Assembly: GCA_023269675.1 (NCBI GenBank)
Contig: JAHFSX010000018.1
Span: forward strand, 52,558 to 116,557
DNA: 64,000 nt
DNA from: Verrucomicrobiota bacterium
GTDB lineage: Bacteria > Verrucomicrobiota > Kiritimatiellia > RFP12 > UBA1067
Reading direction: 5' to 3'
Shown one piece after another: positions 47,566-64,000 of the stretch. Every line of letters begins with the position of its first letter. Position 1 is the stretch's first letter. Under the pieces are notes generated by a model that did no database searches, was not told where the DNA came from, and saw only the letters and a program-made list of their open reading frames with translations. The position numbers were made by a program, and so were the translations under genes.

Positions 47566-49380
47566 ATGAGCAAGAGCAAATCGGTGGTCACGGAAATCTG
47601 CAACCGCTACGGGAATACCCGCGTCCGGCTCATGGACATCGTGCGCGACGTGCAGCAGGAGCTGGGACACGTCCCGCGCGAGGCCTTCGACCTCATCGCG
47701 AAGGGCGCCCACACGCACCGGGTGGAGGTCGAAAGCGTGATCTCCTTCTACGCCTTTCTTTCCGAGCGGAAAAAAGGCGACGTGGTGATCCGGCTCTGCG
47801 ACGACATCATCGACCGCTATCAGGGCGGCGAGGCCGTGGCCGAGGCGCTGACCCGGGCCCTGGGCATCGGCTTTAACGAGACCACGTCCGACGGCCGGGT
47901 CACCCTGGAAAAGACGCCCTCCATCGGGATGAGCGACCAGGCCCCTGCCATGATGGTGAACGACGTGATGGTGACCCGTCTCACGCCGGAGCTCATTCCG
48001 GGCCTGGTCGCGAAACTGCGCCAGACCAACGACCCCCAGTCGCTGGTGGAGTCGTACGGAGACGGCAACAATGCGCACGCGCTGATCCGCTCCATGGTCT
48101 GCAACAACATCCGCGAGAGCGGCGCGGTGATCCTGGCCGACTACAAGCGGGAGAGAGGGCTGCGCAAGGCTCTGACCGAAACCCCCGCGGACGTGATCGC
48201 CGACGTCAAGGCCTCCGGGCTGCGCGGGCGCGGCGGCGCGGGCTTTCTGACGGGCCTGAAATGGGAGCTGACCCGCGAGTCGCCCGGCGCCGAAAAGTTC
48301 GTGCTCTGCAACGCCGACGAGGGCGAGCCCGGCACCTTCAAGGACCGCGTGCTGCTGACGGAGCGGGCGGACCTGATGATCGAGGGCATGACGATTGCCG
48401 GCTACGCCACCGGGGCCGAGACCGGCATCATCTACCTGCGCGGGGAGTACGCCTATCTGCGGCCCTATCTCGAGGACGTCCTGAACCGGCGCCGCGCCGG
48501 CAAGCTGCTGGGAAACGGCATTCTCGGCAACGCGGAGTTTCATTTCGACGTCCGCATCCAGATGGGCGCGGGCGCCTATATCTGCGGCGAGGAGACCTCG
48601 CTGATCAGCTCGTGCGAAGGCACGCGCGGCGACCCGAGCGACCGCACGCCCTTCCCCGTGGCCAAAGGGTATCTGGTTTCGCCGACGGCGGTGAACAACG
48701 TGGAGACCTACTGCTGCGCGGCCCGCATCATGGACCAGGGCGCAGGCTGGTTCGCCGCCATCGGGACCCAGCGCAGCACGGGCACCAAGCTGCTGAGCGT
48801 GTGCGGCGACTGCGCGCGACCGGGCATCTACGAGGTCCCGTTCGGCACGACCCTGCGCGAGGTGCTCAGGCGCGCCGGGGCCGAAAACACGGCGGCCGTC
48901 CAGGTGGGCGGGCCGTCCGGCCAGATGGTCGGACCGGCGCAGTTCGACCAGGGGATCAGCTATGAGGAGCTCGCCACGGGCGGCTCCATGATGGTGTTCA
49001 GCAACGACCGCGACATCCTCGAGATCGTGGAGGCCTTCATGGAGTTCTTCGTGAAGGAGAGCTGCGGGTACTGCGTGCCGTGCCGCGTCGGCAACGTCCT
49101 GCTGAAAAGCCGGATCGAGCGCATCCGCCAGGGCGACGGCGCGCCCGCCGATCTGGCCTATCTGAAAAAGCTCGGCGAAAGCGTCAAGCGCATGAGCCGC
49201 TGCGGCCTCGGGCAGACCTCGCCCAACCCGATCCTCACGTCCCTGAAGAATTTCCAGCCCGTGTACAACGCCCTGGTGCGGGAGGACAAGACCGGCCTGC
49301 AGAAATCCTTCCACATCATGCGGGCCGTCGAAGAGGCGAGCGTGATCGCCGGACGCCGTTCGGAGGTTTTCCACGCGTAA
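47566..49380 (+). CDS. hoxF: NAD-reducing hydrogenase diaphorase large subunit HoxF (with N-terminal HoxE/NuoE-like domain)
   Basis: GRGGAGFLTGLKW, CNADEGEPGTFKDR, ESCGYCVPCRVGN, SRCGLGQTSPNPILTSL. Confidence 0.92.
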   Translation: MSKSKSVVTEICNRYGNTRVRLMDIVRDVQQELGHVPREAFDLIAKGAHTHRVEVESVISFYAFLSERKKGDVVIRLCDDIIDRYQGGEAVAEALTRALGIGFNETTSDGRVTLEKTPSIGMSDQAPAMMVNDVMVTRLTPELIPGLVAKLRQTNDPQSLVESYGDGNNAHALIRSMVCNNIRESGAVILADYKRERGLRKALTETPADVIADVKASGLRGRGGAGFLTGLKWELTRESPGAEKFVLCNADEGEPGTFKDRVLLTERADLMIEGMTIAGYATGAETGIIYLRGEYAYLRPYLEDVLNRRRAGKLLGNGILGNAEFHFDVRIQMGAGAYICGEETSLISSCEGTRGDPSDRTPFPVAKGYLVSPTAVNNVETYCCAARIMDQGAGWFAAIGTQRSTGTKLLSVCGDCARPGIYEVPFGTTLREVLRRAGAENTAAVQVGGPSGQMVGPAQFDQGISYEELATGGSMMVFSNDRDILEIVEAFMEFFVKESCGYCVPCRVGNVLLKSRIERIRQGDGAPADLAYLKKLGESVKRMSRCGLGQTSPNPILTSLKNFQPVYNALVREDKTGLQKSFHIMRAVEEASVIAGRRSEVFHA

Positions 49381-49391
49381 GGGAGTGCGCC

Positions 49392-50102
49392 ATGAACAAA
49401 TCCATTCATCTCACGATCGACGGCAAGCCCGTCGAGGCCAAGCACGGGCAGACCATCATGCAGGCCGCCGACGCGGCGGGCATTTATATTCCGCGGCTGT
49501 GCTCCCACCCCGATTTGCGGCCGATCGGCAGCTGCCGCGTCTGCACGGTGATCGTGGACGGGCGTCCCCAGGCCGCCTGCGTGAAGCCGGCCATGGACGG
49601 CATGGTGATCGAGAACGACACGCCCGAGCTGCTGCAGCACCGCCGGAACATCATCGACATGATGTTCGTCGAGGGCAACCACTTCTGCATGTTCTGCGAG
49701 AAGAGCGGCAACTGCGAGCTGCAGGCCATGGCCTACCGCTTCGGCATCACCGCGCCGCAGTACCCCTTCCAGTTCCCGGAGAAGGCGGTCGACGCCTCCC
49801 ACCCGGACATCATGCTGGACCACAACCGCTGCATCATGTGCGCCCGCTGCGTGCGCGCCTCGCAGGAGCTGGACGGCAAGAACGTGTTCCAGGCCATCGG
49901 GCGGGGCTTCCACCGCAAGATCGGCGTCGACGGCGAAAAGGCGCTGGCCGACACGGACATGGCGGTCGGCGACCGGTCGGCGGACGTCTGTCCGGTCGGG
50001 TGCATCATCAAGAAGCGGATCGGCTTCCGGACCGCGATCGGCCGGCGCCTTTACGACCGGCAGCCGATCGGCTCCGACATCGAAGCGAACGCCACACCCT
50101 GA
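49392..50102 (+). CDS. hoxU: NAD-reducing hydrogenase diaphorase small subunit HoxU
   Basis: 2Fe-2S CSHPDLRPIGSCRVC, HFCMFCEKSGNCELQ, CIMCARCVRA, ADVCPVGCI. Confidence 0.92.
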   Translation: MNKSIHLTIDGKPVEAKHGQTIMQAADAAGIYIPRLCSHPDLRPIGSCRVCTVIVDGRPQAACVKPAMDGMVIENDTPELLQHRRNIIDMMFVEGNHFCMFCEKSGNCELQAMAYRFGITAPQYPFQFPEKAVDASHPDIMLDHNRCIMCARCVRASQELDGKNVFQAIGRGFHRKIGVDGEKALADTDMAVGDRSADVCPVGCIIKKRIGFRTAIGRRLYDRQPIGSDIEANATP

Positions 50103-50122
50103 TTTCGAGGAGGGCTCACCCC

Positions 50123-50668
50123 ATGTCAAAACCACGCGTCGCCACAACCTCTTTGGCCGGATGCTTCGGCTGCCACATGTCCCTGCTCGACATCGACGAG
50201 CGCATCCTGAGCCTGATCGAGCGGGTCGATTTCGACCGGTCGCCGATCGACGACATCAAGCACATCTCCCAACGCTGCGCCATCGGCCTGATCGAGGGCG
50301 GGTGCTGCAACGAGGAGAACGTGCGCGTGCTGTACGAGTTCCGCAAGAACTGCGACCTCCTGATCTCCGTCGGCGACTGCGCGACCATGGGCGGCATTCC
50401 GGCCCTGCGCAACAACATCCCGCTGCAGGAGTGCATCGACGAGGCCTACCGCACCGGCGTCACGGTTTACAACCCCGACGACATCACGCCGCAGGATCCG
50501 GAAATCCCCCTGCTGCTGAACCGGGTCTACCCCTGCCACGAGGTGGTGAAGATCGACTACTTTCTGCCCGGCTGCCCGCCCTCGGCTGACACCCTGTGGG
50601 CGGCGCTCACGGCGCTGCTCTCGGGCCAGCCGTTGGAGCTGCCGTACGAGCTTCTGAAATACGACTGA
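50123..50668 (+). CDS. hoxY: [NiFe] hydrogenase small subunit HoxY
   Basis: TSLAGCFGCHMSLLDID, EGGCCNEEN, VGDCATMGGIPALRN, LPGCPPSADT. Confidence 0.93.
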   Translation: MSKPRVATTSLAGCFGCHMSLLDIDERILSLIERVDFDRSPIDDIKHISQRCAIGLIEGGCCNEENVRVLYEFRKNCDLLISVGDCATMGGIPALRNNIPLQECIDEAYRTGVTVYNPDDITPQDPEIPLLLNRVYPCHEVVKIDYFLPGCPPSADTLWAALTALLSGQPLELPYELLKYD

Positions 50669-50823
50669 ACATGAATCGGGTGAGGTTTTTTTTGCGGTTT
50701 AGCCTGTTAGTCGATTAGGCCTGAATCAACGTGTTACACACCTGCTTTCTGTAGTTTTCTACGGACTACCTAACAGCCTAACTGCCTAACAGCCTGCCCC
50801 CTCAGGGGGCAACGGGAGGCACC

Positions 50824-52260
50824 ATGAGTGTGGGAACCAAGAAGATCACGATCGAGCCAGTCACCCGCGTGGAGGGCCACGGCAAAGTGACCATCCTGCT
50901 CGACGCGCAGGGGCAGGTCAGCCAGGCCCGCCTGCACATCGTCGAGTTCCGCGGCTTCGAGCGCTTCATCCAGGGGCGCCCCTACTGGGAGGTGCCCGTG
51001 CTGGTGCAGCGCCTGTGCGGCATCTGCCCGGTCAGCCACCATCTGGCGGCGGCCAAGGCCATGGACGGCATCGTCGGCGTGGACCGGCTCACGCCCACGG
51101 CCGAGAAGATCCGTCGGCTGATGCATTACGGCCAGGTCTTCCAGAGCCACGCCCTGCACTTCTTCCATCTGGTCTCGCCCGACCTGCTGTTCGGCTTCGA
51201 CGCCGACCCGGCCCTCCGCAACGTGATCGGCGTGGCGAACCGCTTCCCCGAGCTGGCCGTGCAAGGCGTCATGATGCGCAAATTCGGGCAGGAGATCATC
51301 AAGGCCACCGCGGGCAAGAAGATCCACGGCACCGGAGCGGTGCCAGGCGGGGTCAACAAGAACCTCTCCGTCGCCGAGCGCGACCCGTTTCTGAAGGACA
51401 TCGACCAGATGCTCGTCTGGTGCCGCGCCGCCCTCCAGATCGCCAAGACCTACACGCTGGAGCACCTCGCCGAGCTGGCGGATTTCGGCTCGTTCGCCTC
51501 GAACCATGTCGCGCTGGTGCGGCCGGACGGCGCGATGGACCTCTACCACGGCAACCTGCGCGCCATCGATTCCGAGGGGAATAAGATCTTCGACCAGGTC
51601 GATTACCAGGGCTACTTCAACTACATCGCCGAAGAGGTCAAGCCGTGGTCCTACATGAAGTTCCCCTTCATCTCCAAGCTCGGGCCGGAGACCGGCTGGT
51701 ACCGCGTGGGGCCGCTGGCGCGGGTCAACGCCTGCGACTTCATCGACACGCCCGAGGCGGAAGCCGCCCGCCAGGAGTTCAAGGCGCTCACCCACGGCAA
51801 GCCGAACAACATCACCATGGCCTACCACTGGGCGCGCATGATCGAGCTCCTGCACGCGGGCGAGAAGATCAGGGAACTGCTCAACGACCCCGACCTGCAG
51901 GGCACGGACCTGGTGACCCGCGGCGAGCGGCGCGGGGAGTCGGTCGGCCTGATCGAGGCGCCGCGCGGCACGCTCTTCCACCACTACAAGGTCGACAAGA
52001 ACGACCAGGTCACCATGGCCAACCTGATCGTCTCGACGACCCACAACAACACGCCGATGAACCTCGCCGTGACCGGCGTGGCCAAGAAGTACCTCTCCGG
52101 CGCGGTGATCACCGAGGGGCTCCTCAACCGGGTGGAGGTGGCGATCCGCGCCTACGACCCTTGCCTCTCCTGCGCCACCCACGCGCTGGGCCGCATGCCG
52201 CTGAGCGTGGAGCTGAAGGATTGTACGGGCCAGATCATCGACAAGAAGGTCGCAGGCTAG
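50824..52260 (+). CDS. hoxH: [NiFe] hydrogenase large subunit HoxH
   Basis: RLCGICPVSHHLAAAKAMD and C-terminal DPCLSCATHALGRMPL ligands. Confidence 0.95.
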   Translation: MSVGTKKITIEPVTRVEGHGKVTILLDAQGQVSQARLHIVEFRGFERFIQGRPYWEVPVLVQRLCGICPVSHHLAAAKAMDGIVGVDRLTPTAEKIRRLMHYGQVFQSHALHFFHLVSPDLLFGFDADPALRNVIGVANRFPELAVQGVMMRKFGQEIIKATAGKKIHGTGAVPGGVNKNLSVAERDPFLKDIDQMLVWCRAALQIAKTYTLEHLAELADFGSFASNHVALVRPDGAMDLYHGNLRAIDSEGNKIFDQVDYQGYFNYIAEEVKPWSYMKFPFISKLGPETGWYRVGPLARVNACDFIDTPEAEAARQEFKALTHGKPNNITMAYHWARMIELLHAGEKIRELLNDPDLQGTDLVTRGERRGESVGLIEAPRGTLFHHYKVDKNDQVTMANLIVSTTHNNTPMNLAVTGVAKKYLSGAVITEGLLNRVEVAIRAYDPCLSCATHALGRMPLSVELKDCTGQIIDKKVAG

Positions 52261-52412
52261 TAGTCTGTCCTCTCAAAAATTTCACTTTTGGACAGGATTT
52301 GCTGCGTAGATTCGGGTACAAATCTCCATGATTTTCAGGATTGAATTCAATGGCTAACAATCATGTGAATCATGTAATCATGTCCGAAAAATCATAATGT
52401 ACAATGTACTAG

Positions 52413-52472
52413 CCCCCCGCGCGGGGATGCGCAGGACACATCGGAATGTGGCACGCCCATCCCTGGGCGTGC
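52413..52472 (-). repeat. REP-like element family A, copy 3
   Basis: Reverse orientation of the 21594/25334 element. Confidence 0.75.
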
Positions 52473-52499
52473 GCCGGTAAACAGGACAGGGCGAATATC

Positions 52500-52546
52500 G
52501 TGCGGTTTATCGTGATCGGTTACGGCACCCGTGCCAGGCGGGCCAG
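52500..52546 (+). pseudogene. Truncated, diverged duplicate of the hoxW 5' end
   Basis: GTGCGGTTTATCGTGATCGGTTACGGCACCCG (VRFIVIGYGTR) parallels GTGCGGATACTCGTGATGGGTTACGGCAATCCG (VRILVMGYGNP) exactly 136 bp downstream. Confidence 0.65.
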
Positions 52547-52548
52547 GC

Positions 52549-52609
52549 CCCCCCGCGCAGGGATGCGCATGGCACATCGGAATGTGGCACGCCCATCCCT
52601 GGGCGTGCG
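52549..52609 (-). repeat. REP-like element family A, copy 4
   Basis: Second unit of the 136-bp tandem duplication. Confidence 0.75.
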
Positions 52610-52635
52610 CCGGTAAACAGGAGAGGGAGAAGACC

Positions 52636-53094
52636 GTGCGGATACTCGTGATGGGTTACGGCAATCCGGGGCGCCTGGACGACGGGCTCGGGCCCGCGTT
52701 CGCCGAACGCATCCAGGCGCTGGACATTCCCGGCGTCACGGTCGACGCCGATTACCAGCTCTGCGTCGAAGACGCCGCGGCCCTCGCCCGGCACGACCTC
52801 GTCCTGTTCGCCGACGCTGCGGTCGAGGGTCCGGAACCTTTCGAACTCCAGCCTTTGCAGGCGCGGCACACCGGTCTGGGGTTCAGCAGCCACAGCCTGT
52901 CGGCGGGCGCGCTGCTGGGTCTCGCGCAGGAGCTCTTCGGCGCCGCGCCGCGCGCCTTCCTGTTGGGCATCCGCGGGTACGACTTCAACGCCTTCGGCGA
53001 ACGGCTGTCGGAACGGGCGCAGGCGAATCTCGACGCCGCCGTGGCGCACCTCGAGCCCCTGCTGCGCGACGGCTTCGCGGCCGCATCAAGTTGA
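52636..53094 (+). CDS. hoxW: Hydrogenase maturation protease HoxW
   Basis: GTG start after GGAGAGGGAG; VRILVMGYGNPGRLDDGLGPAFAERI...DYQLCVEDA. Confidence 0.88.
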   Translation: MRILVMGYGNPGRLDDGLGPAFAERIQALDIPGVTVDADYQLCVEDAAALARHDLVLFADAAVEGPEPFELQPLQARHTGLGFSSHSLSAGALLGLAQELFGAAPRAFLLGIRGYDFNAFGERLSERAQANLDAAVAHLEPLLRDGFAAASS

Positions 53095-53155
53095 ATAACG
53101 CCAAGGGCACATAATATTTGGGCTAACGTGGGCTCTGCCCTCAACCCGGAATTTC

Positions 53156-53705: not shown

Positions 53706-54087
53706 CACAAAAAAACGCCTTTGCACACGGTCTTCCACGGCCGCCCCCGCGGTGCTATACTGACCCGCAGGCAAAGGAAGGAGGCAGCGGAGGAACTCAT
53801 CAGCAGGGCCGGCATCATCCTCGCGGGAACGGGAGGGACGAGACGGCGGCAGGCCCAGAAGGCCTGGCGCGTTGTAGCCGAAGACTGGCTGCTCAGAAGC
53901 GGCCATGTCGTTGAGACAACCAACAATGTGTTACCCTATTCTTTCGTCCATTATGGCTTATGAACAGGTTGTGCGCACAACCTGTGAGTACTCGAATCCG
54001 GTGCATTCCCATGTTCGCTTCTCATCATTTTATCGCCCTTGGTCCCGCATCAAAAACAGCGTAGCCGTCATGTCGCCCTTTGTCGCT

Positions 54088-54510
54088 TCATGTTGCGTTC
54101 CTTGTGTTGCGCAAACACTGTTTCCAGTTGGATCGCAAGTTCTTTATTAAACGTCTAATAGCGAGGAAACAGATGACAGAGTAGGTTAAACCTAGAAAAT
54201 GAAGAAACTCCGGAGAGGGATGTTTATACTGGAATAGCAAACATGTGGGGTGCCAAATAATCACCAGTATTGCTATGAGGAAAGGAAAAAATTTGTCATA
54301 GACGGGAAGATCTGTAAAGAGTCCGAGAGCTACGTTTATAAGAAAACTGAAAAATAATCCCGGAACGCATACAAGAAAAATGCCGAGTATTTGAATACCC
54401 CAGGGTTCATACCAAGGCATGCCTTTGATCAAAGATGTGAAAATGAACAATGCAAGAAGCATTGACAGAAACGAAACGGTAAAGGAAATCAAATATGTGA
54501 CACATCTCAT
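54088..54510 (-). CDS. Cassette-encoded multi-TM membrane protein
   Basis: Hydrophobic 140-aa ORF; SD GGGAGGC before ATG. Confidence 0.65.
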   Translation of the reverse strand: MRCVTYLISFTVSFLSMLLALFIFTSLIKGMPWYEPWGIQILGIFLVCVPGLFFSFLINVALGLFTDLPVYDKFFPFLIAILVIIWHPTCLLFQYKHPSPEFLHFLGLTYSVICFLAIRRLIKNLRSNWKQCLRNTRNAT

Positions 54511-54696
54511 ATTGCCTCCCTTGTATTATGTATGCATAAAAGTACGCAAACCTTCACTTCATCCTCATACCGGAACGTGACCGACCGCTTTCTGAACGGT
54601 TCAACGGCTTCGGTTTTTCCGGTCCGGCCAAGCTTAAGTATTGGCCTCATAACGGGACGAGAGATCTCCGTTTTCTCATCATGATTTCTATCCAGA

Positions 54697-54751
54697 GCGG
54701 ACGTCGGTAATCATCCCTTGTACTCAATCGGGATGAATTACCTTGTTCGCC
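54697..54751 (-). other. attC site
   Basis: GCGGACGTCGGTAATCATCCC...GGGATGAATTACCTTGTTCGCC; one extra base in the right arm. Confidence 0.75.
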
Positions 54752-54975
54752 TTTTCATTGTCTTTTCTGTTTTTCATCTTCAGCGCCCCAGCAGTCAACA
54801 AACAGAGCGTCAAGCATAGCAACATGGCACCAAGATATACCCAACCTGCAAACGGTCGACTCTGCCAGAAGAATGCCAAGATCACTTTCGCCGCCAGCAC
54901 GCATGAAATCAGAGCTAGGGCAAATACAAGAACCTGCCATTCCTCTCTCTGTTTCTTTCTATCCTTCATGCTCAC
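54724..54975 (-). CDS. Cassette-encoded small two-TM protein (copy 1)
   Basis: MSMKDRKKQREEWQVLVFALALISCVLAAKVILAFFWQSRPF...; identical to the protein encoded at 59083-59334. Confidence 0.7.
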   Translation of the reverse strand: MSMKDRKKQREEWQVLVFALALISCVLAAKVILAFFWQSRPFAGWVYLGAMLLCLTLCLLTAGALKMKNRKDNEKANKVIHPD

Positions 54976-55009
54976 CCTGTATTATGTATGCATAAAAGTA
55001 CGCAAACCC

Positions 55010-55564
55010 TCACTTCGTCCTCATAGCAGGGGTATTAGTTGCGGGTGGCTGAACGCCGCGCATTATGGCACTCCGTTCATTGCTATAGTCGTTCCACAGT
55101 AGACCTTTGCAGGGGCCCTCCGCAGTCAGCAAAAAGAACGCAAAACCGGAACTGCCTGAGTTTGTCACTTCTGCTTTGATGGCCTGCCCATCTTTTAAGA
55201 AGAAAACTACCTTTTGTCTTCCAACGGGCACAACCAAGGGAACCGGCACGACAAGAAGGGGTGCGATGCCGCACCAGATACGACCAAACTCGTACGTCCA
55301 GAGTTCCTCCTGACATCCAGTCGAAGCCGGCGTGATACTAAGCGGGTCGCCCCAGTCGGTTCGTAACTGATCAACCGTGATTATTCTACTGCCGTGCTCA
55401 AAACCATGATAGTCAAAAACGTTCTCGATTCCCGTGCCGGCGATGCGAGGGGAATCGAGCGTTTCCGTTTTTCTTCCAAACAGGCCGACACCTATACAGC
55501 CTTGTGTTAGCAGAGAGACCGCTAGAATCGGAATCAACATTAGCGTATCGTGAAAATTACTCAT
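55010..55564 (-). CDS. Lipoprotein, unknown function
   Basis: MSNFHDTLMLIPILAVSLLTQGCIGVGLFGRK lipobox. Confidence 0.65.
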   Translation of the reverse strand: MSNFHDTLMLIPILAVSLLTQGCIGVGLFGRKTETLDSPRIAGTGIENVFDYHGFEHGSRIITVDQLRTDWGDPLSITPASTGCQEELWTYEFGRIWCGIAPLLVVPVPLVVPVGRQKVVFFLKDGQAIKAEVTNSGSSGFAFFLLTAEGPCKGLLWNDYSNERSAIMRGVQPPATNTPAMRTK

Positions 55565-55594
55565 TCTATTCTCCAACACAATTCTAATCACCTG

Positions 55595-55951
55595 TATTAT
55601 GTATTATGTATGCATAAAAGTACGCAAACCTTCACTTCGTCCTCATAGCGGAACGTTGCCGACCGCTTTCGGTCCGACCAACCTTTGCCATGCCTTTGAT
55701 TCCTGAACCGTGGCAACTGGCCAAAACCGTATGTTTGGAGCGTATCACCGCGGAAACCTTACCGTCAAGGTGCAATGGCGTCTGGGATGGCTCGGGATGC
55801 GCCGGAAGGTCTTACAAGGGTGATGAGCGGTTTGGGGACGCGGAGAAGCGGTAACGGCCCGCCGACCCGCGAGCCCCGTCCCCAACCGTGCTGCACTCAC
55901 GATCTAAAGTGGGTGGCCTGTGTCTCGTCCATATAGGTCATATCGCGCAGT
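55595..55951 (-). repeat. Array module repeat of about 350 bp, copy 1 (diverged at its left end)
   Basis: AACCGTATGTTTGGAGCGTATCACCGCGGAAACCTTACCGTCAAGGTGCAATGGCGTCTGGGATGG...GGTTTGGGGACGCGG...CGTCCCCAACCG. Confidence 0.8.
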
Positions 55952-56268
55952 TACCTAAACAGGGTCATAACCAACCAAATAAGGCCTATGCCCCCTACTG
56001 CATAGCAGACAATCTTGATCATTACCCAAGGCCCTTCGGCAAATCCTTCACCGACTCCATTCCAGAAATCGTCTTTCCCAAGTCCTGCAAGCAGTCCGCC
56101 GAGGAGGGCGCAACCAGATACGATGAGGACGCCAGGCGTCGCAGATGTGGAAAGCGCCCAGTCCGATCTCATCCAGCAACGCAAACCGATGACACCCCCC
56201 ACGAGGGCGCCACAAACAAAATGCACGCAGAAGCCGGGCCAGTCAATTCTGTTTTGTCCGTTGTCCAT
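55951..56268 (-). CDS. Cassette-encoded membrane protein
   Basis: MDNGQNRIDWPGFCVHFVCGALVGGVIGLRCW..., SD GGAAGAG. Confidence 0.6.
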   Translation of the reverse strand: MDNGQNRIDWPGFCVHFVCGALVGGVIGLRCWMRSDWALSTSATPGVLIVSGCALLGGLLAGLGKDDFWNGVGEGFAEGPWVMIKIVCYAVGGIGLIWLVMTLFR

Positions 56269-56273
56269 TCTCT

Positions 56274-56345
56274 TCCCAACGTCAACGACCATCGGCCCCC
56301 TGAGCCGAAGGCGAATGGGGGTTCGATGGGTCGTCTCGTTGGGCC
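56274..56345 (-). other. attC site
   Basis: CCCAACGTCAACGACCATCGGCCCCC...GGGGGTTCGATGGGTCGTCTCGTTGGGCC. Confidence 0.85.
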
Positions 56346-56896
56346 TTTGTAATGTTCCCAAGTTCCGCCGACATCTCCGCCAGTGTTGTTGTCACTGACT
56401 CAACCGATCGATCAAATTCCGAGAGCAGTATCTCATATTTTCGCTTCCACCTCCATGTTAGGTAACTTTGTATCCCAATCACAAAGAAGCAGACGGCAAA
56501 GAAAGATTGGAAGTGTTTTGCGATGAGTGTGGCAACATCGGCAAGATCGAGAAAGATCATCAGTCCGCCGCCTATGATCCCAAACACTCCCAAGCACCAG
56601 TCGGCATCATTGTATTTATTGTGCTTATGCAATGCCGTGATCGGAGAAATCGCAGTATTCTGGGGATCGTTACGGCAGTACCTCCAACCCAAGCCCGCGA
56701 ACGCAAGAGTAAAGAAGACGAGAACACCGCATACAATGCCAACCTTTCGGTCAAAAGAGCCTATTTGTACAGTGCGCCACACGAGGAGCGTGGCAAAGAT
56801 GGCGAAGGTTAGCGCGATGCCCAAGCAAATCACACCAACCATGATCGCCGAGCCCCGTGGCACCGATCGAAATAATTTTTCATCTTGTCGTGTCAT
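56282..56896 (-). CDS. Cassette-encoded membrane protein
   Basis: MTRQDEKLFRSVPRGSAIMVGVICLGIALTFAIFATLLVW; several TM segments. Confidence 0.6.
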   Translation of the reverse strand: MTRQDEKLFRSVPRGSAIMVGVICLGIALTFAIFATLLVWRTVQIGSFDRKVGIVCGVLVFFTLAFAGLGWRYCRNDPQNTAISPITALHKHNKYNDADWCLGVFGIIGGGLMIFLDLADVATLIAKHFQSFFAVCFFVIGIQSYLTWRWKRKYEILLSEFDRSVESVTTTLAEMSAELGNITKAQRDDPSNPHSPSAQGADGR

Positions 56897-56907
56897 GTTC
56901 TCTTCAT

Positions 56908-56964
56908 GCTCAACGTCGGGAATCACCTGCGTGTACCCGCGACAGGTGCATTCCCTTGTTCGCC
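56908..56964 (-). other. attC site
   Basis: GCTCAACGTCGGGAATCACCTG...CAGGTGCATTCCCTTGTTCGCC. Confidence 0.85.
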
Positions 56965-56972
56965 TTTGTTAT

Positions 56973-57449
56973 TCATCGGTACCCAATCTGCCCTTTAGTG
57001 AAACCCTTTGACAGTAGATAACTGTTCAGTTTCTTACAGGATGCTGAATCGAGCATTATGAATCCAACGTCTTTTCCCGTCGGATAGATTCCACAGCCAT
57101 GGTCGTAACTGATGCTGTGATCACCTGAAGCTGCTTTGATCACTATTGATATATTGCCGTAGCAGAGGTGAGAATCTCCCAGATGTTGCCTCAAATTACG
57201 AATTTCTAGACAAGACAGTATCAATTGCAGTTCGGCCGGGTCAGAGATCGCTACCGTTTTGTGTATGGTTCTGTCACTGGGACCCTGTTGTTTGATGGCA
57301 AGGTCAATTTGTCTAACGTCGGCTCGACATTTAATAATACATTCGTTGTGTTTTTTTAGTTCCTCTTTGGGCGTTTCACGAAAGTAGAAATAGGCCGCAA
57401 GACTAAGCGCGCAGACAATAATGAGGGCCGATAAAGTTGTCTTTCGCAT
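56973..57449 (-). CDS. Cassette-encoded secreted/anchored protein, unknown
   Basis: MRKTTLSALIIVCALSLAAYFYF N-terminal signal/anchor; SD AAGGAAAG. Confidence 0.6.
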   Translation of the reverse strand: MRKTTLSALIIVCALSLAAYFYFRETPKEELKKHNECIIKCRADVRQIDLAIKQQGPSDRTIHKTVAISDPAELQLILSCLEIRNLRQHLGDSHLCYGNISIVIKAASGDHSISYDHGCGIYPTGKDVGFIMLDSASCKKLNSYLLSKGFTKGQIGYR

Positions 57450-57555
57450 TGTTCTTTCCTTGTTCATTATCTCGATTTTAACCTTTCGCCGGCCCCCCGT
57501 TTTCGACTGAAAGGACAACCGTTCGGGAGCCTAAACCAATCGTCCATTTTGTGAT

Positions 57556-57610
57556 GGCGAACGTCGGGAATCATCCCTTGTATTCAAAGGGATGCATTCC
57601 CTTGTTCACC
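57556..57610 (-). other. attC site
   Basis: GGCGAACGTCGGGAATCATCCC...GGGATGCATTCCCTTGTTCACC. Confidence 0.88.
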
Positions 57611-57621
57611 TTTTTCATCGA

Positions 57622-57915
57622 CTATTCATATTCTTCGGAAGTGAATCCGAATGCTTGGATTTCATCCGCCGTGGCGTCGCGGAACTCTGACACTTTGACT
57701 TGCCGACAGCCAGGGCAAGTACAGTTGTCGTCTTCAATACCACCGTATGTGGCAGTCTCGAGATCATGAGGATTGGGATAGACTGTCCCAACCTCGTCAC
57801 AGACCAAGACGATATATCCGCACTTCGGACATGTCGAGAAACAGAGTGCGCCCTGACCACTGCAGCACTCGCATCGAGGTTTCTTCAGGTTCCATTTTGG
57901 CCTTATAAATTGCAT
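57622..57915 (-). CDS. Cassette-encoded small zinc-ribbon-like protein
   Basis: CECCSGQGALCFSTCPKCGYIVLVCDE, CTCPGCRQV cysteine pairs. Confidence 0.65.
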   Translation of the reverse strand: MQFIRPKWNLKKPRCECCSGQGALCFSTCPKCGYIVLVCDEVGTVYPNPHDLETATYGGIEDDNCTCPGCRQVKVSEFRDATADEIQAFGFTSEEYE

Positions 57916-57927
57916 ATCGTTTCCTTG

Positions 57928-58525
57928 GTATGTGTCTGCATAAAAGCACGCGAGCATTCCAATCATCCTCATACCGGAACGGACTAATATCGTCTTAAAC
58001 CGTTCACCGCAAATAGGTTAGCACAGAAACAAGGTCGTTTCCGCACCCCGGAGGCAAAAACCAGACGTTTGGAAGCTTTCAAAACCAGTAAACGCATGTC
58101 CAAACCGCATGTTCGAAGGGTAACACCCTGTAAACCTTACCGTCAAGGCGCAATGGCGTCTGGAATGGGCAAGGACGCATCGGAAGGCTTTTCATGGCCA
58201 AATGAACACCCAAGAGGCGCCCCCCCGCTCTTAACCGCTGCAAGCACCCTTGCCGCCGGAAGGGTTGTCGATGGGCGGACTCGTCGGTAAGGGGGATGCG
58301 CGCCCCTCCCAGGCAGGCGCAAGCGTAAGCGGCCCCGATTACCGATAGGCCGCCTGTCGGCAACCGGCCACCCTCTGCCGGCTAACGGACGGATTCCACC
58401 CCGCAGACGGCCACGGCACCCCAGCGCAACAACGCGGGGTGCCACAGGCCGGAGAGCGGGGCAATGAAGAGGACCGTTGACACGGGCGAAACGCCTATGG
58501 CTTGTCATATAGGCCATATCTCACC
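57928..58525 (-). repeat. Array module repeat, diverged copy 4
   Basis: TGCATAAAAGCACGC..., AAACCTTACCGTCAAGGCGCAATGGCGTCTGGAATGG..., GTCATATAGGCCATATCTCACCG. Confidence 0.6.
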
Positions 58526-58528
58526 GCA

Positions 58529-58630
58529 GTGGATCTCCGACGTGTATCTCCGACGGTCCAAAATTGCCTTTGATTCGAGACCGATCTCGACGGGGAAAAC
58601 CGATCGAAAAACCCCCGTCTATCCTGTCGG
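58529..58630. repeat. Array repeat D, copy 1
   Basis: GTGGATCTCCGACG...GGTCCAAAATTGCCTTTGATTC...CCCCCGTCTATCCTGTCGG. Confidence 0.65.
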
Positions 58631-58663
58631 AAAAGCCGATCTTTCCCCTATTTCTAAAATCGA

Positions 58664-58722
58664 GGCGAACGTTGCGGGGCACGAACGCGCGTCAGCGCGT
58701 TCCGTGGCCCCGCTGGTTAGCC
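58664..58722 (-). other. attC site
   Basis: GGCGAACGTTGCGGGGCACGAACGCGCGTCAGCGCGTTCCGTGGCCCCGCTGGTTAGCC. Confidence 0.9.
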
Positions 58723-59051
58723 TGTCGTTCATCTTGATACTTCAAAAGCAGTCGTTCGGTCCTCCACCCGCGATAGGCTTCCCACCAATTCCGTAAACAA
58801 TCTGCTGCCTGAGCCGCTGCAAAAAGGAGGAACAGACCAAAGGTCATTCCTGTCATGAACCCAATGATCTTGTAGTTGTCCGGATTAGGTTCGATTTTAT
58901 GAAAGAACTCGATGAACCAAATAAGGATGGCAAAAAGACACAAAAAGAGAACTGGCCACAACCACCTGAACCGATGCACGGTGTTGACCTTCTTTCTGAT
59001 TCTCTCGATGTACTCTTCATCGGATAAATGGCGCAATCGTTTCATTTTCAT
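58692..59051 (-). CDS. Cassette-encoded two-TM protein
   Basis: MKMKRLRHLSDEEYIERIRKKVNTVHRFRWLWPVLFLCLFAILIWF. Confidence 0.65.
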   Translation of the reverse strand: MKMKRLRHLSDEEYIERIRKKVNTVHRFRWLWPVLFLCLFAILIWFIEFFHKIEPNPDNYKIIGFMTGMTFGLFLLFAAAQAADCLRNWWEAYRGWRTERLLLKYQDERQANQRGHGTR

Positions 59052-59055
59052 TATG

Positions 59056-59111
59056 GCTAACGTCGGTAATCATCCCTTGTACTCAATCGGGATGAATTAC
59101 CTTGTTCGCCT
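59056..59111 (-). other. attC site
   Basis: GGCTAACGTCGGTAATCATCCC...GGGATGAATTACCTTGTTCGCC. Confidence 0.88.
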
Positions 59112-59334
59112 TTTCATTGTCTTTTCTGTTTTTCATCTTCAGCGCCCCAGCAGTCAACAAACAGAGCGTCAAGCATAGCAACATGGCACCAAGATATACC
59201 CAACCTGCAAACGGTCGACTCTGCCAGAAGAATGCCAAGATCACTTTCGCCGCCAGCACGCATGAAATCAGAGCTAGGGCAAATACAAGAACCTGCCATT
59301 CCTCTCTCTGTTTCTTTCTATCCTTCATGCTCAC
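59083..59334 (-). CDS. Cassette-encoded small two-TM protein (copy 2, identical to 54724-54975)
   Basis: Same protein MKDRKKQREEWQVLVF...KVIHPD. Confidence 0.7.
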   Translation of the reverse strand: MSMKDRKKQREEWQVLVFALALISCVLAAKVILAFFWQSRPFAGWVYLGAMLLCLTLCLLTAGALKMKNRKDNEKANKVIHPD

Positions 59335-59338
59335 CCTT

Positions 59339-59689
59339 GGTACTGTATGCATAAAAGCACGCAAAGCAGACCTATTCATTTCGTGGAGTATCTTCCATTG
59401 CGCTCATTCGTCTCAAACCGTTTCCAGTCTGCCGGGTTTCGGTTGAACCGTCATAACCTGCCTGAACCGTATGTTTGGAGCGTATCACCGCGGAAACCTT
59501 ACCGTCAAGGTGCAATGGCGTCTGGGATGGCCCAGGATGCGCCGGAAGGTCTCACAGGGGCAATGGGCGGTTTGGGGACGGGGCGAAGCGGTAACGGCCT
59601 GCCGACCCGCGAGCCCGTCCCCAACCGTGCTGCAATCAAGATCTCAAGTGGATGGCCTGTGGCTCGTCTATATAGGCCATATCACACCG
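59339..59689 (-). repeat. Array module repeat of about 350 bp, copy 2
   Basis: Nearly identical to 61083-61431. Confidence 0.9.
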
Positions 59690-59825
59690 TTGGCGTAACT
59701 TGCTCAACCGTTCGGCACCCGATACCGGTCTTCATTTTCCCGATTTTTACCATTCGGTTGCCAACCGCAGTCGACTGACAAATCAACCGTTCGGGAGCCC
59801 AAACCGATCATCTATTATTTTTTAT

Positions 59826-59881
59826 GGCGAACGTTGAGGAATCATCCCTTGTAATCAATGGGATGCATTCCCTTGTTCGCC
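59826..59881 (-). other. attC site
   Basis: GGCGAACGTTGAGGAATCATCCC...GGGATGCATTCCCTTGTTCGCC. Confidence 0.88.
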
Positions 59882-59947
59882 TGTTTCGTTGCTCTTTTAA
59901 CACCCTTGTCTATGCGACATCGAATGGGGGTACAATGCCTGTGGGCT

Positions 59948-61045
59948 TCAAAATCCAACAGTCGTCACTATCTTGTCCAAATGCGGGGTCATGAGAACTC
60001 TTCCATGCACCTTTTCTCCAGTCAATTCCTTGTCTTCGTGTGTGTCAAGGTTATGAGTCCTCCATCCGCCGATCTCTTTCGATGAACCGCTACTCGTGTC
60101 TATCATCTGGTAATGCAGATTACGCTTGCAGTCAACTGCGTGGAGCCATATGCCGCGCTTTGACTTCACGCGAATAATCTCCCTCTTTTCCGAAGAGCCA
60201 ATTTTCTGTTCGTAAACAACATTGTCAACGGCATAAACAACTCCGTCATCAGAACTCCAGACCGCATGATAAACATGGAAATCTTCTCCGGCAGGTGAAA
60301 TGGTGAAAACTTCTTTTTCGGCCTTTAGGTCTACGATATGAAAGCGGAACCTGGTCGAAGTGCCAACTTCCTCTGATGCCAGAAGGTAGCGTTTAGACGG
60401 AGAGAGGAGTACCGGCCCGTAAGAGGAGTCGTAATACCCAGAAATTTCTGAGCTGCCCATATTCTCAAGGTGAAAAAAAAGAGAGTTTTCCTTGTGTCCT
60501 AAGCCAAAGCCCTCGTGTGCATTTTTGGCATAGAGAAGAATGGTCGTGGCATCTACCCAAAAGACCTTGTATCCAGAATATGCGGACAGATTGTTGTGTG
60601 GACCAGGATTAGTCAGCATAGGTTTGGTGCCTTCTTTGGTAATTGAGAAGACCCTAAGTCGGCTACGACTGTAACCATCAAATCGCTCCATATATGCCAG
60701 ATGCTGTCCATCGGGCGAAAACGCATATTCATCGTCCCCGTAACTTGTAAACAAAAGAGGAATGTACGTCCTACTGATTTCCTTACCAGCAAAGTTGTAT
60801 TCTTTACAAACGAAGGTGTTTGTTTCAGTACGTTTTAAAGTGGCAAAGCTGTGCTCCGTCATGTAGACAGGCTCTTCCCTAAACGTTCCGTCATCCCGCT
60901 TGATAATTACTGAAGATCGGTCAGCATCGACAATACAGACTCCTGCACACCCCGCAATAAGGAGAGAAGAGATAATCACGAACGCAGCCGCTGAAAATAG
61001 CGGAATACTCGACCAATGGTTATGACTCATCACTTTATCGCGCAT
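59948..61045 (-). CDS. Cassette-encoded lipoprotein with TolB/beta-propeller-like repeats
   Basis: Lipobox LLIAGCAGV; YAFSPDGQHLAYMERF, LLSPSKRYLLASEEV, VWSSDDGVVYAVDNV. Confidence 0.65.
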   Translation of the reverse strand: MRDKVMSHNHWSSIPLFSAAAFVIISSLLIAGCAGVCIVDADRSSVIIKRDDGTFREEPVYMTEHSFATLKRTETNTFVCKEYNFAGKEISRTYIPLLFTSYGDDEYAFSPDGQHLAYMERFDGYSRSRLRVFSITKEGTKPMLTNPGPHNNLSAYSGYKVFWVDATTILLYAKNAHEGFGLGHKENSLFFHLENMGSSEISGYYDSSYGPVLLSPSKRYLLASEEVGTSTRFRFHIVDLKAEKEVFTISPAGEDFHVYHAVWSSDDGVVYAVDNVVYEQKIGSSEKREIIRVKSKRGIWLHAVDCKRNLHYQMIDTSSGSSKEIGGWRTHNLDTHEDKELTGEKVHGRVLMTPHLDKIVTTVGF

Positions 61046-61082
61046 TTTGGCATTACCTTTCTGACCAAACGTGAGAACCCTT

Positions 61083-61431
61083 GGTACTGTATGCATAAAA
61101 GCACGCAAAGCAGACCTATTCATTTCGTGGAGTATCTTCCATTACGCTCATTCGTCTCAAACCGTTTCCAGTCTGCCGGGTTTCGGTTGAACCGTCATAA
61201 CCTGCCTGAACCGTATGTTTGGAGCGTATCACCGCGGAAACCTTACCGTCAAGGTGCAATGGCGTCTGGGATGGCCCAGGATGCGCCGGAAGGTCTCACA
61301 GGGGCAATGGGCGGTTTGGGGACGGGGCGAAGCGGTAACGGCCTGCCGACCCGCGAGCCCGTCCCCAACCGTGCTGCAATCAAGATCTCAAGTGGATGGC
61401 CTGTGGCTCGTCATATAGGCCATATCTCACC
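61083..61431 (-). repeat. Array module repeat of about 350 bp, copy 3
   Basis: Nearly identical to 59339-59689. Confidence 0.9.
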
Positions 61432-61547
61432 ATGATGCATCAACTTGCCTTGTTCGTCGGATTCTGAAACAATTACAACACTAGTTGATTTCGTAATCGT
61501 GAAGGTGGGGATCTCGCATTGAACGTCGTTAGGGGGGTGGTGAAAAA

Positions 61548-62246
61548 ATGAATGAAAAATCGCGCTTTCTGACAGTGCTACTGGTTCTCAGCGCTTTCCT
61601 GCTCAATGGTTGTTCAATATTTCTTAATGAAAGCAACAAGAAATATGCCTTTTATACAACAGAATTTGAGAATAACCCTCTCAATGAATCACGCGAGGGA
61701 TTAACCTACACTGGGGCCAAGCAGCAGGACAGGGGACCGACAAACGAATACATCGTCGCAGGAGTCTTTTCCAACAAACGTAAATTTCTCCGCATTATGA
61801 TTCCAAACAACGCCAGAGGTAAAGAAATCAAATCTTCCCGGAACATCGACGACTTCCGTTCATATTGCCTAAATCAGACTAACGAGCATGCCATTCTCGA
61901 TGTCATTAGCTCTGATGTTACTGGCGATAGTTCCATTGTTAGTGTTAAACCGTGGGATGGGCTCAACGATTATATCTACCCTGAATACCATAACCATTCC
62001 CGTGACGTTGCCTCCAGAGATTTGATTGTTTTCTTTAACGTATATGCAGGTATTAGTGGGGTCTTATTTAAGCGCAAAAGTGACGGCGAACTAGTGCTTA
62101 TTCCAATACAAAGTGATATTGAATGGAAAAAAAGAAGTCGATGTAATTTGTTTATGCGGCGGTCCGCTTACATCATTACGATCCCTTTAGACATCGTGGC
62201 AACACCGTTTTATTTGTTAATTATGATGACAAAGGGTGTTGGATAA
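61548..62246 (+). CDS. Lipoprotein, unknown function (opposite orientation to the array)
   Basis: MNEKSRFLTVLLVLSAFLLNGCSIFL lipobox; SD GGGGGGTGG. Confidence 0.7.
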   Translation: MNEKSRFLTVLLVLSAFLLNGCSIFLNESNKKYAFYTTEFENNPLNESREGLTYTGAKQQDRGPTNEYIVAGVFSNKRKFLRIMIPNNARGKEIKSSRNIDDFRSYCLNQTNEHAILDVISSDVTGDSSIVSVKPWDGLNDYIYPEYHNHSRDVASRDLIVFFNVYAGISGVLFKRKSDGELVLIPIQSDIEWKKRSRCNLFMRRSAYIITIPLDIVATPFYLLIMMTKGVG

Positions 62247-62363
62247 GGCCTAATTGTACTTCAAACGGATCAATCCCTGCGCCCTGAATAAGAATCGTGT
62301 TTTATTCTTATTGCGGTAGAACTTTGATTACCGCCTAACCGTTCGGTAACCGATATTTCCGTC

Positions 62364-62460
62364 GTGGATCTCCGCTAGTCCAGCTTTGCCTTTGATCAGG
62401 AACCGAACTCACTGTGAAAACTGATCGCAAAATCCCCGTCTATCCTGCCGACCAGACCTG
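62364..62460. repeat. Array repeat D, copy 2
   Basis: GTGGATCTCCGCTAGTCCAGCTTTGCCTTTGATC...CCCCGTCTATCCTGCCG. Confidence 0.65.
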
Positions 62461-62497
62461 CCTTGATTTGTCTTTGGTTGGCCGGTCCCCGCTCGCC

Positions 62498-62590
62498 GTG
62501 GATCTCCACCGGTCCAAAATTTGTCTTTGATCTTCGGCTGGCAGAACCGGAAAATCAATCAGGGGAACCGCCCGGTCCGTCCTGCCGGAA
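62498..62590. repeat. Array repeat D, copy 3
   Basis: GTGGATCTCCACCGGTCCAAAATTTGTCTTTGATC...GTCCTGCCGG. Confidence 0.65.
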
Positions 62591-62607
62591 CCCCGAATCC
62601 CGGTGCG

Positions 62608-62666
62608 GCGAACGTTGAGCGCCACGAACGCGCGTCAGCGCGTTCCGTGTGCGCTCTGGTTCGCGC
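62608..62666 (-). other. attC site
   Basis: GGCGAACGTTGAGCGCCACGAACGCGCGTCAGCGCGTTCCGTGTGCGCTCTGGTTCGCG; same central loop as the 58664 site. Confidence 0.85.
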
Positions 62667-62979
62667 TTGGTCCTGCCTTCGTTAACGCATTCGTGAGAGC
62701 GATCATGTTGCAAAGCATGGTCAAAATCACAATGGCCCAAGTGACTTTCGTCAAAGACCGAGGTTTCCATCTGTCCAGATGTCTTCGGCTTTGCATTTCG
62801 GCATAGGTCAAAGGGACTATGACAGATGCCAGACTGATGATTGCGCATGTTAGAGCCTGCAAAAGGTGCTTACGCAGTACCATTATAAAGATAGCATCGG
62901 TCAGAGGAAGCAGCAGAAAGACGGCCATTAGAAATGAAACAAACGTCAGCGGGTGGTACTGTTGTTTTGTCTTGTTCAT
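62635..62979 (-). CDS. Cassette-encoded multi-TM protein
   Basis: MNKTKQQYHPLTFVSFLMAVFLLLPLTDAIFIMVLRKHLLQALTCAIISLASVIVPL. Confidence 0.65.
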   Translation of the reverse strand: MNKTKQQYHPLTFVSFLMAVFLLLPLTDAIFIMVLRKHLLQALTCAIISLASVIVPLTYAEMQSRRHLDRWKPRSLTKVTWAIVILTMLCNMIALTNALTKAGPSANQSAHGTR

Positions 62980-62993
62980 TTCATTTCTCTGCG

Positions 62994-63049
62994 GGCGAAC
63001 GTCGGGAATCACCCGCCTGTATTCATGAGGGTGCATTACCTGGTTCGCT
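62994..63049 (-). other. attC site
   Basis: GGCGAACGTCGGGAATCACCC...GGGTGCATTACCTGGTTCGCT. Confidence 0.85.
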
Positions 63050-63082
63050 TTTTGGTTGCTCCATTATCATGTTCTTCGAGAT

Positions 63083-63331
63083 TCATGCCCCCGCAATCCG
63101 TATGGCGAATAACAGCCCCGCGACGGCGATAACCAGTACTTCGTTCTGTAGAATGTAGCTACGCATCTGTCCACGCTCCCTTCTCATGTCGCGCGCATGA
63201 CACAGTATCCGTCCCTGAGGAATGGCGACAACCAGCGCCAAACCTATGAAACATGCGCTTGGGCTCTTGCAGAGTAGGCCCAAGACGAAGCCGATGAGAA
63301 GCAGTGGCAAGATATGGTAATCAATTCTCAT
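63083..63331 (-). CDS. Cassette-encoded small membrane protein
   Basis: MRIDYHILPLLLIGFVLGLLCKSPSACFIGLALVVAIP. Confidence 0.6.
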   Translation of the reverse strand: MRIDYHILPLLLIGFVLGLLCKSPSACFIGLALVVAIPQGRILCHARDMRRERGQMRSYILQNEVLVIAVAGLLFAIRIAGA

Positions 63332-63446
63332 CGATGTCTTCTGTCGGATTCCTTCATTTTCTCGATTTTAACCTTACGCTTGCCCCACGGTGCCGAGTGA
63401 CTGATCAACCTTTCGGGAGCCCAAAACCAGTCTTCCATTTTTTGAT

Positions 63447-63509
63447 GGCGAACGTCAGCGATCAGGCCGGGGCGCGGCAGCGCCATCGGCCTGCATCGCT
63501 TGGTTGGCC
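63447..63509 (-). other. attC site
   Basis: GGCGAACGTCAGCGATCAGGCC...GGCCTGCATCGCTTGGTTGGCC. Confidence 0.9.
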
Positions 63510-63511
63510 TG

Positions 63512-63883
63512 TTATTGTGGCAACTTCCCCTTTGGCTTGTCGAACATCGGATGATCCAACTCCTTTGTCAGGACGCATGAGTCATCCGCCGTGAATGCCA
63601 GCGATACGACATTCCCGATCTTTAGGTCTTGCAGGACGTACAGGAAAGATTCCATGGCCTTGCGATCGGCTTCTGTCGCTCGATCAAGCATCCCCATTTT
63701 ATCGAGGATGTCATCTGCACCCACATCCGTTCCGAGATAGACCAAGTGGCCGGAGTCTTGCTTCTTCCCCGTCTTCACGCCGACAAAGTAATTCTGACGA
63801 GGCACATCGAGACAGGGCACTAGGTGTTCTCCGCCTCGCCCGTTCTTTGTCGTTGTGTGCGGTAGCTTTCTTGTTTTGATCAT
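63512..63883 (-). CDS. Cassette-encoded soluble protein, unknown
   Basis: 123-aa ORF ending 3 nt from the attC site. Confidence 0.6.
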   Translation of the reverse strand: MIKTRKLPHTTTKNGRGGEHLVPCLDVPRQNYFVGVKTGKKQDSGHLVYLGTDVGADDILDKMGMLDRATEADRKAMESFLYVLQDLKIGNVVSLAFTADDSCVLTKELDHPMFDKPKGKLPQ

Positions 63884-63893
63884 TTTATCACTT

Positions 63894-63950
63894 GGCCAAC
63901 GTCGGTAATCACCCTCTTGTAATCAAGAGGGTGCATTACCTTGTTCGGCA
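63894..63950 (-). other. attC site (of a cassette running off the right edge)
   Basis: GGCCAACGTCGGTAATCACCCTC...GAGGGTGCATTACCTTGTTCGGC. Confidence 0.85.
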
Positions 63951-64000
63951 TTGTGTTTTTCTGTTACTTGGGCTCGGGTTGAAATGCCGACTCATGAGCG

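Follow-up and report, generated by a model that had tools for sequence, protein, structure and literature searches.

An array of attC sites at a contig end, very probably the distal part of a sedentary chromosomal integron in a putatively Lentisphaerota-like bacterium

Sedentary chromosomal integrons have been described from Vibrio, Xanthomonas, and Treponema. According to established integron biology, the integrase IntI would recombine the folded bottom strand of an attC site with attI or with another attC, the cut being placed within the R' box, and cassettes would thereby be inserted and excised. An attC site is defined by paired R''/R' and L''/L' boxes, an unpaired central spacer, one or more extra-helical bases on the R''-L'' arm, and a variable terminal structure (PMC2727003). 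Cassettes that carry a promoter in place of a gene are known in the Vibrionaceae (PMC11014356) and in oral Treponema (PMC6557892), and Lentisphaera araneosa was included in the 2011 survey of IntI sequences (PMC3108266).

The window, the whole 64,000 nt stretch of DNA analysed here, is contig C82:52558-116557 of a 6.3 Mb genome in 85 contigs, and its right end, position 64,000, is the end of the contig. An attC array takes up the final 10 kb, with a GC content of 0.494 against 0.658 in the remaining window, and a covariance model search found none of the model's sites in positions 1-53,900. Very probably this region belongs to a sedentary chromosomal integron, of which it would be the distal part; this reading is supported by the one-way attC array, the truncated attC at its distal end, the low GC content, and the presence of intI and of an attI-cassette junction on another contig, C55. 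The host would be a Lentisphaerota-like bacterium, as placed by the similarity of its IntI and by MAG labels only.

The eleven palindromes of the array are attC sites (Table 1). All were found within a few nucleotides of where the first-pass annotation had put them, and its reading of their AAC/GTT boxes and imperfect palindromic arms as attC agrees with the pairing, the covariation, and the covariance model. Read on the minus strand, the sites have the form R''(..AAC)-(A/C)A-L''-loop-L'-GAC or CAAC-R'(GTT), and both arms are paired in 11/11 folds, the site at 62994 being the weakest. In an alignment of 12 sites, comprising ten of the 11 in the window, one from C83, and one from C19, the AAC of R'' and the GT of R' are invariant, and 96.2% of paired cells are able to pair, against 80.7% in shuffles. 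Compensatory, two-sided changes are seen at 9/11 inner-stem pairs, as many as in none of 500 shuffles, and when the partner is shifted by 1-3 columns the pairing falls to 24-46%. The extra unpaired base had been said to be confined to one arm; indeed, a single unpaired base (column 16), mostly G and otherwise T, A, or C, is on the R''-L'' arm in every aligned row. The window sites therefore have the elements of the definition in PMC2727003, with one extra-helical base in the stem, whereas classical attC have two or three.

A covariance model trained on the same 12 sites recovers 11/11 window sites (E 3e-15 to 8.5e-5), all on the minus strand, which is the single orientation originally proposed. 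Ten of them, scoring 51-68 bits, are members of the training set, while the site at about 56276, which is not, scores 28.6 bits; sites on C1, C13, and C62, also outside the training set, score 58-69 bits. The site at 56274 is 96% and 93% identical to two copies on C19. The largest gap between the 11 same-strand sites is 2.8 kb, which is below the 4 kb taken as the limit for an integron.

Table 1. Features of the attC array and of related loci in the same genome (positions are those of the window unless a contig is named)
Feature	Position	Strand	Remarks
Truncated terminal attC	53990..54018 (about)	-	R''-L'' arm and loop kept, L'-R' arm lost; distal array end
Cassette ORF, 140 aa, hydrophobic	54088..54510	-	no Pfam match
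Isolated 19-nt motif	54529..54547	-	upstream of ORF 54088-54510
attC	54697..54752	-	67.1 bits, E 5e-15; R' box degenerate (GTC, not GTT)
Cassette ORF, 83 aa	54724..54975	-	duplicate of 59083-59329
Isolated 19-nt motif	54985..55003	-	upstream of ORF 54724-54975
Cassette ORF, up to 193 aa	55010..55591	-	no Pfam match
Leader module D	55600..55952	-	motif 55607-55625
Cassette ORF	55951..56268	-	ATG at about 56268 picked by inspection; longest frame opens at 56361 inside attC; no Pfam match
attC, second, longer-loop type	56274..56344	-	28.6 bits, E 8.5e-5, not in training set; overlaps 3' end of ORF 56282..56926
Cassette ORF, about 204-214 aa	56282..56926	-	end overlaps attC 56274; no Pfam match
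attC	56908..56964	-	65.0 bits
Cassette ORF, up to 181 aa	56973..57518	-	no Pfam match
attC	57556..57611	-	68.0 bits
Cassette ORF, 97-116 aa, CxxC motifs	57622..57972	-	no Pfam match
Leader module D, longer variant	57923..58525	-	motif 57933-57951
attC, GC-rich type with hairpin loop	58664..58722	-	54.2 bits
Cassette ORF, 119 aa	58692..59051	-	overlaps attC 58664; Pfam matches below cut-off only
attC	59055..59111	-	67.5 bits; with its cassette ORF, 98% duplicate of 54701-55006
Cassette ORF, up to 98 aa	59083..59379	-	
Leader module D	59333..59689	-	motif 59344-59362
attC	59826..59882	-	64.6 bits
Cassette ORF, up to 391 aa	59948..61123	-	weak beta-propeller similarity under Pfam cut-off
Leader module D	61077..61431	-	motif 61088-61106; 99% identity to 59333-59688
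ORF, 232 aa, sole long one in opposite direction	61548..62246	+	within 2.8-kb fused-looking interval
attC, GC-rich type	62607..62665	-	56.8 bits
Cassette ORF, up to 133 aa	62635..63036	-	no Pfam match
attC	62994..63049	-	67.4 bits
Cassette ORF, 82 aa	63083..63331	-	
attC, GC-rich loop type	63446..63509	-	51.1 bits
Cassette ORF, 123 aa	63512..63883	-	
attC, final one before contig end	63894..63949	-	67.1 bits
attI-side remnant near attC, without intI	C19 L022 6736-6874		
attI-side remnant near attC, without intI	C25 L169 6480-6559		
attI-side remnant near attC, without intI	C62 L166 16784-16864		

The distal end of the array had been placed at about 53.95 kb, and this is correct, because a truncated attC is present there. 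Contig C83 has this site in intact form, and over 64 nt of flank and arm the two are 93.75% identical. Since this terminal attC is truncated and the R' box of the site at 54697 is degenerate, a portion of the array may have become inactive. Adjoining the distal end, at 49080-53100, are genes that resemble a [NiFe] hydrogenase cluster (HoxU/HoxY/HoxH-like with a maturation protease, judged by eye); the C19 array likewise adjoins a [FeFe]-hydrogenase-like gene.

The R' boxes divide the array into about 11 complete intervals and one partial interval at the contig end, mostly with one minus-strand ORF each, in keeping with the first-pass annotation, which had nearly all ORFs on this strand and their products mostly unknown. 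None of the ten cassette ORFs tested against Pfam reaches the cut-off, and there is no credible Rfam match in the array at either gathering or relaxed thresholds. The interval 54704-56281 contains three ORFs and the 2.8 kb interval 59832-62614 contains two, on opposite strands, which suggests that both are fused cassettes. An ORF-attC unit is also duplicated, with 98% identity between 54701-55006 and 59060-59365.

Several cassettes would be fused units with a non-coding leader in common, here called module D. The window has four copies of it, each upstream of a cassette ORF, with relatives on C13, C19, C29, and C62 and in one genome of the same genus. The module ends in a 19-nt motif, GCGTRCTTTTATGYANACA, which, with one mismatch allowed, has 10 matches in the 6.3 Mb genome, all at integron loci, while the reversed motif, used as a control, has none in the genome. 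The same-genus genome has two copies of the motif, and the other 55 genomes of the family have none. An ORF starts within roughly 15-50 nt after the motif in 9/11 aligned cases, and in the other two, on C29 and in the same-genus sister genome, it is followed by an attC. Indeed, in these two the attC is directly after the leader, whereas the copies on C19 and in the window are fused to the downstream ORF. On C29 (L031 1738-2260) two genes that resemble a toxin-antitoxin pair (RelB/DinJ-like and YoeB/RelE-like, judged by eye) adjoin the leader module and attC sites, in the opposite direction.

These placements suggest that the leader is a cassette-borne promoter, and the 19-nt motif may serve in this way for the ORF just downstream, although it is at least as possible that the leader is a decayed element. 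The chance is slightly less than even that it has no role as a promoter and spread through the array as a small mobile element of the non-autonomous kind or as the decayed remnant of a cassette. The module is present in repeated copies, one pair of which is 99% identical, and on C19 its 3' half is between the two arms (R''-L'' and L'-R') of an attC, with an attC arm at the same module position in the sister genome, all of which would fit such an element. A promoter is favoured instead by the motif being usually just upstream of ORFs and by its 91% identity between copies, against 26-40% for the flanks, a comparison that is biased by the copies having been chosen by the motif; no terminal inverted repeats, as might mark a mobile element, were noticed. 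Searches for the leader in plasmids and phages gave no match. Sigma-70 promoter and terminator scans were at chance level, and the result for sigma-70, like the negative result for RNA structure given below, counts against the promoter. A wider form of the promoter reading, in which the leader is shared genus-wide, partly within attC loops, the motif is a common promoter or regulator-binding site for the downstream gene, and cassettes remote from the promoter of the array itself share one cassette-specific expression signal, is unlikely.

Other identities for the leader were considered and set aside. As a structured RNA it has folding z-scores of 0.08 (minus strand) and -1.06 (plus strand), with two-sided change in 1/17 consensus pairs, and as a group II intron remnant it has no Rfam match. 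At the C19 site with the leader in its loop (L022 5510-5718) the attC arms are about 155 nt apart, the total length of known attC being 57-142 nt; the arms are present, but shuffles fold equally well, and the site was therefore rejected as a foldable hairpin.

The genome encodes one integron integrase, of 426 aa, on C55 (L001:578-1858), which scores 386.5 bits with TIGR02249 against a cut-off of 265. The intI with a patch III insertion that was to be sought is therefore present, in that this protein aligns through the integron-specific insert to the Vibrio cholerae IntI4 (PDB 2a3v), as do its conserved R, HxxR, GH, and Y positions, while XerD chains match it in the C-terminal part only. About 330 nt from the start of intI, at the junction GGCGAAC-GTTATATGGGCGTCC (L001 ~246), a cassette meets the putative attI region, having been inserted at the G/TT point, and the region neighbouring this junction is common to other platforms. 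The leader of this first cassette is 79% identical over 263 nt to window 58415-58673.

It had been predicted that intI would lie to the right of the window. It could not be found there, because the contig ends at position 64,000, and C82 has no intI; it is instead on C55, with the attI-cassette junction oriented as predicted. On C55 intI and the cassettes diverge from attI, which is the usual orientation, and the window cassettes would come next, the facing ends of the C82 array (right) and of C55 (left) both being contig ends. The window array would belong to the C55 intI, a link drawn across separate contigs. New cassettes would enter at the right, intI-proximal side, and the window cassettes are for this reason probably the oldest.

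Eight other contigs also have attC sites, in some cases a single one: C1, C13, C19 (four), C25 (two), C29 (two), C45, C62, and C83. On C19 and C25, pieces of the attI-side region adjoin attC without intI, with a further piece on C62, and these three loci are best read as degraded platforms. The first-pass annotation would have given up its reading had the palindromes occurred genome-wide without cassettes; they do occur elsewhere, but several adjoin cassette ORFs or attI remnants, as would be expected of integrons in decay and not of an unrelated palindrome scattered through the genome. Such loci, of which at least two (C19 and C25) have lost intI and kept attI remnants, do lend some weight to the window array being a separate cluster of the CALIN type, its own integrase lost, as does the lack of intI on C82. 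This is rather unlikely, given that the array is the largest in the genome and that the contig end interrupts it on its intI-proximal side, as would be expected if repeats broke the assembly, and that C55 opens inside a cassette with the same type of leader. A different identity for the palindromes, as transcription terminators or as a repeat of the REP/MITE type, might be suggested by their being short imperfect hairpins close to ORF ends. It is barely credible in view of the conservation of their AAC/GTT boxes and spacers, the extra base on one side only, the cassette organisation, and the compensatory change between divergent sequences, and the joint presence of intI, an attI junction, and covariation in this genome in effect refutes it.

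The integron is thus of a known kind, a sedentary chromosomal integron with degraded relics in the same genome. Relatives in the family carry intI and attC as well: in 57 of its genomes, with this one counted, intI is matched at 1e-40 or better in eight, six of these above the cut-off, and in 41 genomes, this one again counted, the attC model has matches in 10. In an IntI tree the C55 protein groups with one Lentisphaerota MAG and two lake MAGs (100/100), within a wider group that is mostly N-terminally extended and includes sequences from Thermodesulfobacteriota, Nitrospirota, and Omnitrophota. Its N-terminal extension of about 110 aa (L001 578-900), which has no Pfam match, is aligned in 26 of 90 proteins, the query included, and is common to IntI of MAGs from these three phyla.

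The locus adds a well-supported chromosomal integron to the Lentisphaerota/Kiritimatiellota, where a literature search gave little beyond Lentisphaera araneosa, and several decayed platforms within one genome. It is like the sedentary chromosomal integrons named above in its attC structure, single orientation, and distinct GC content, in cassette ORFs mostly without known function, and in an IntI with the integron-specific insert and an attI junction adjoining intI. It differs in its Lentisphaerota-like MAG, the N-terminal extension of IntI, and the splitting of the array over contigs. The clusters and single attC sites on the eight other contigs, without adjoining intI, resemble the CALIN of IntegronFinder (PMC9024848), but two of the eight loci keep remnants of the attI region, which would make them former complete platforms. 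As with the gene-less cassettes of Vibrionaceae and Treponema, there are non-coding cassette segments upstream of the genes of other cassettes; here, in contrast, the leaders are mostly fused to the downstream ORF with no intervening attC and share one conserved 19-nt motif, a candidate promoter only. If the motif is a promoter, it would be an example of expression signals that are carried on cassettes and become permanently attached to genes when the attC between them is lost.
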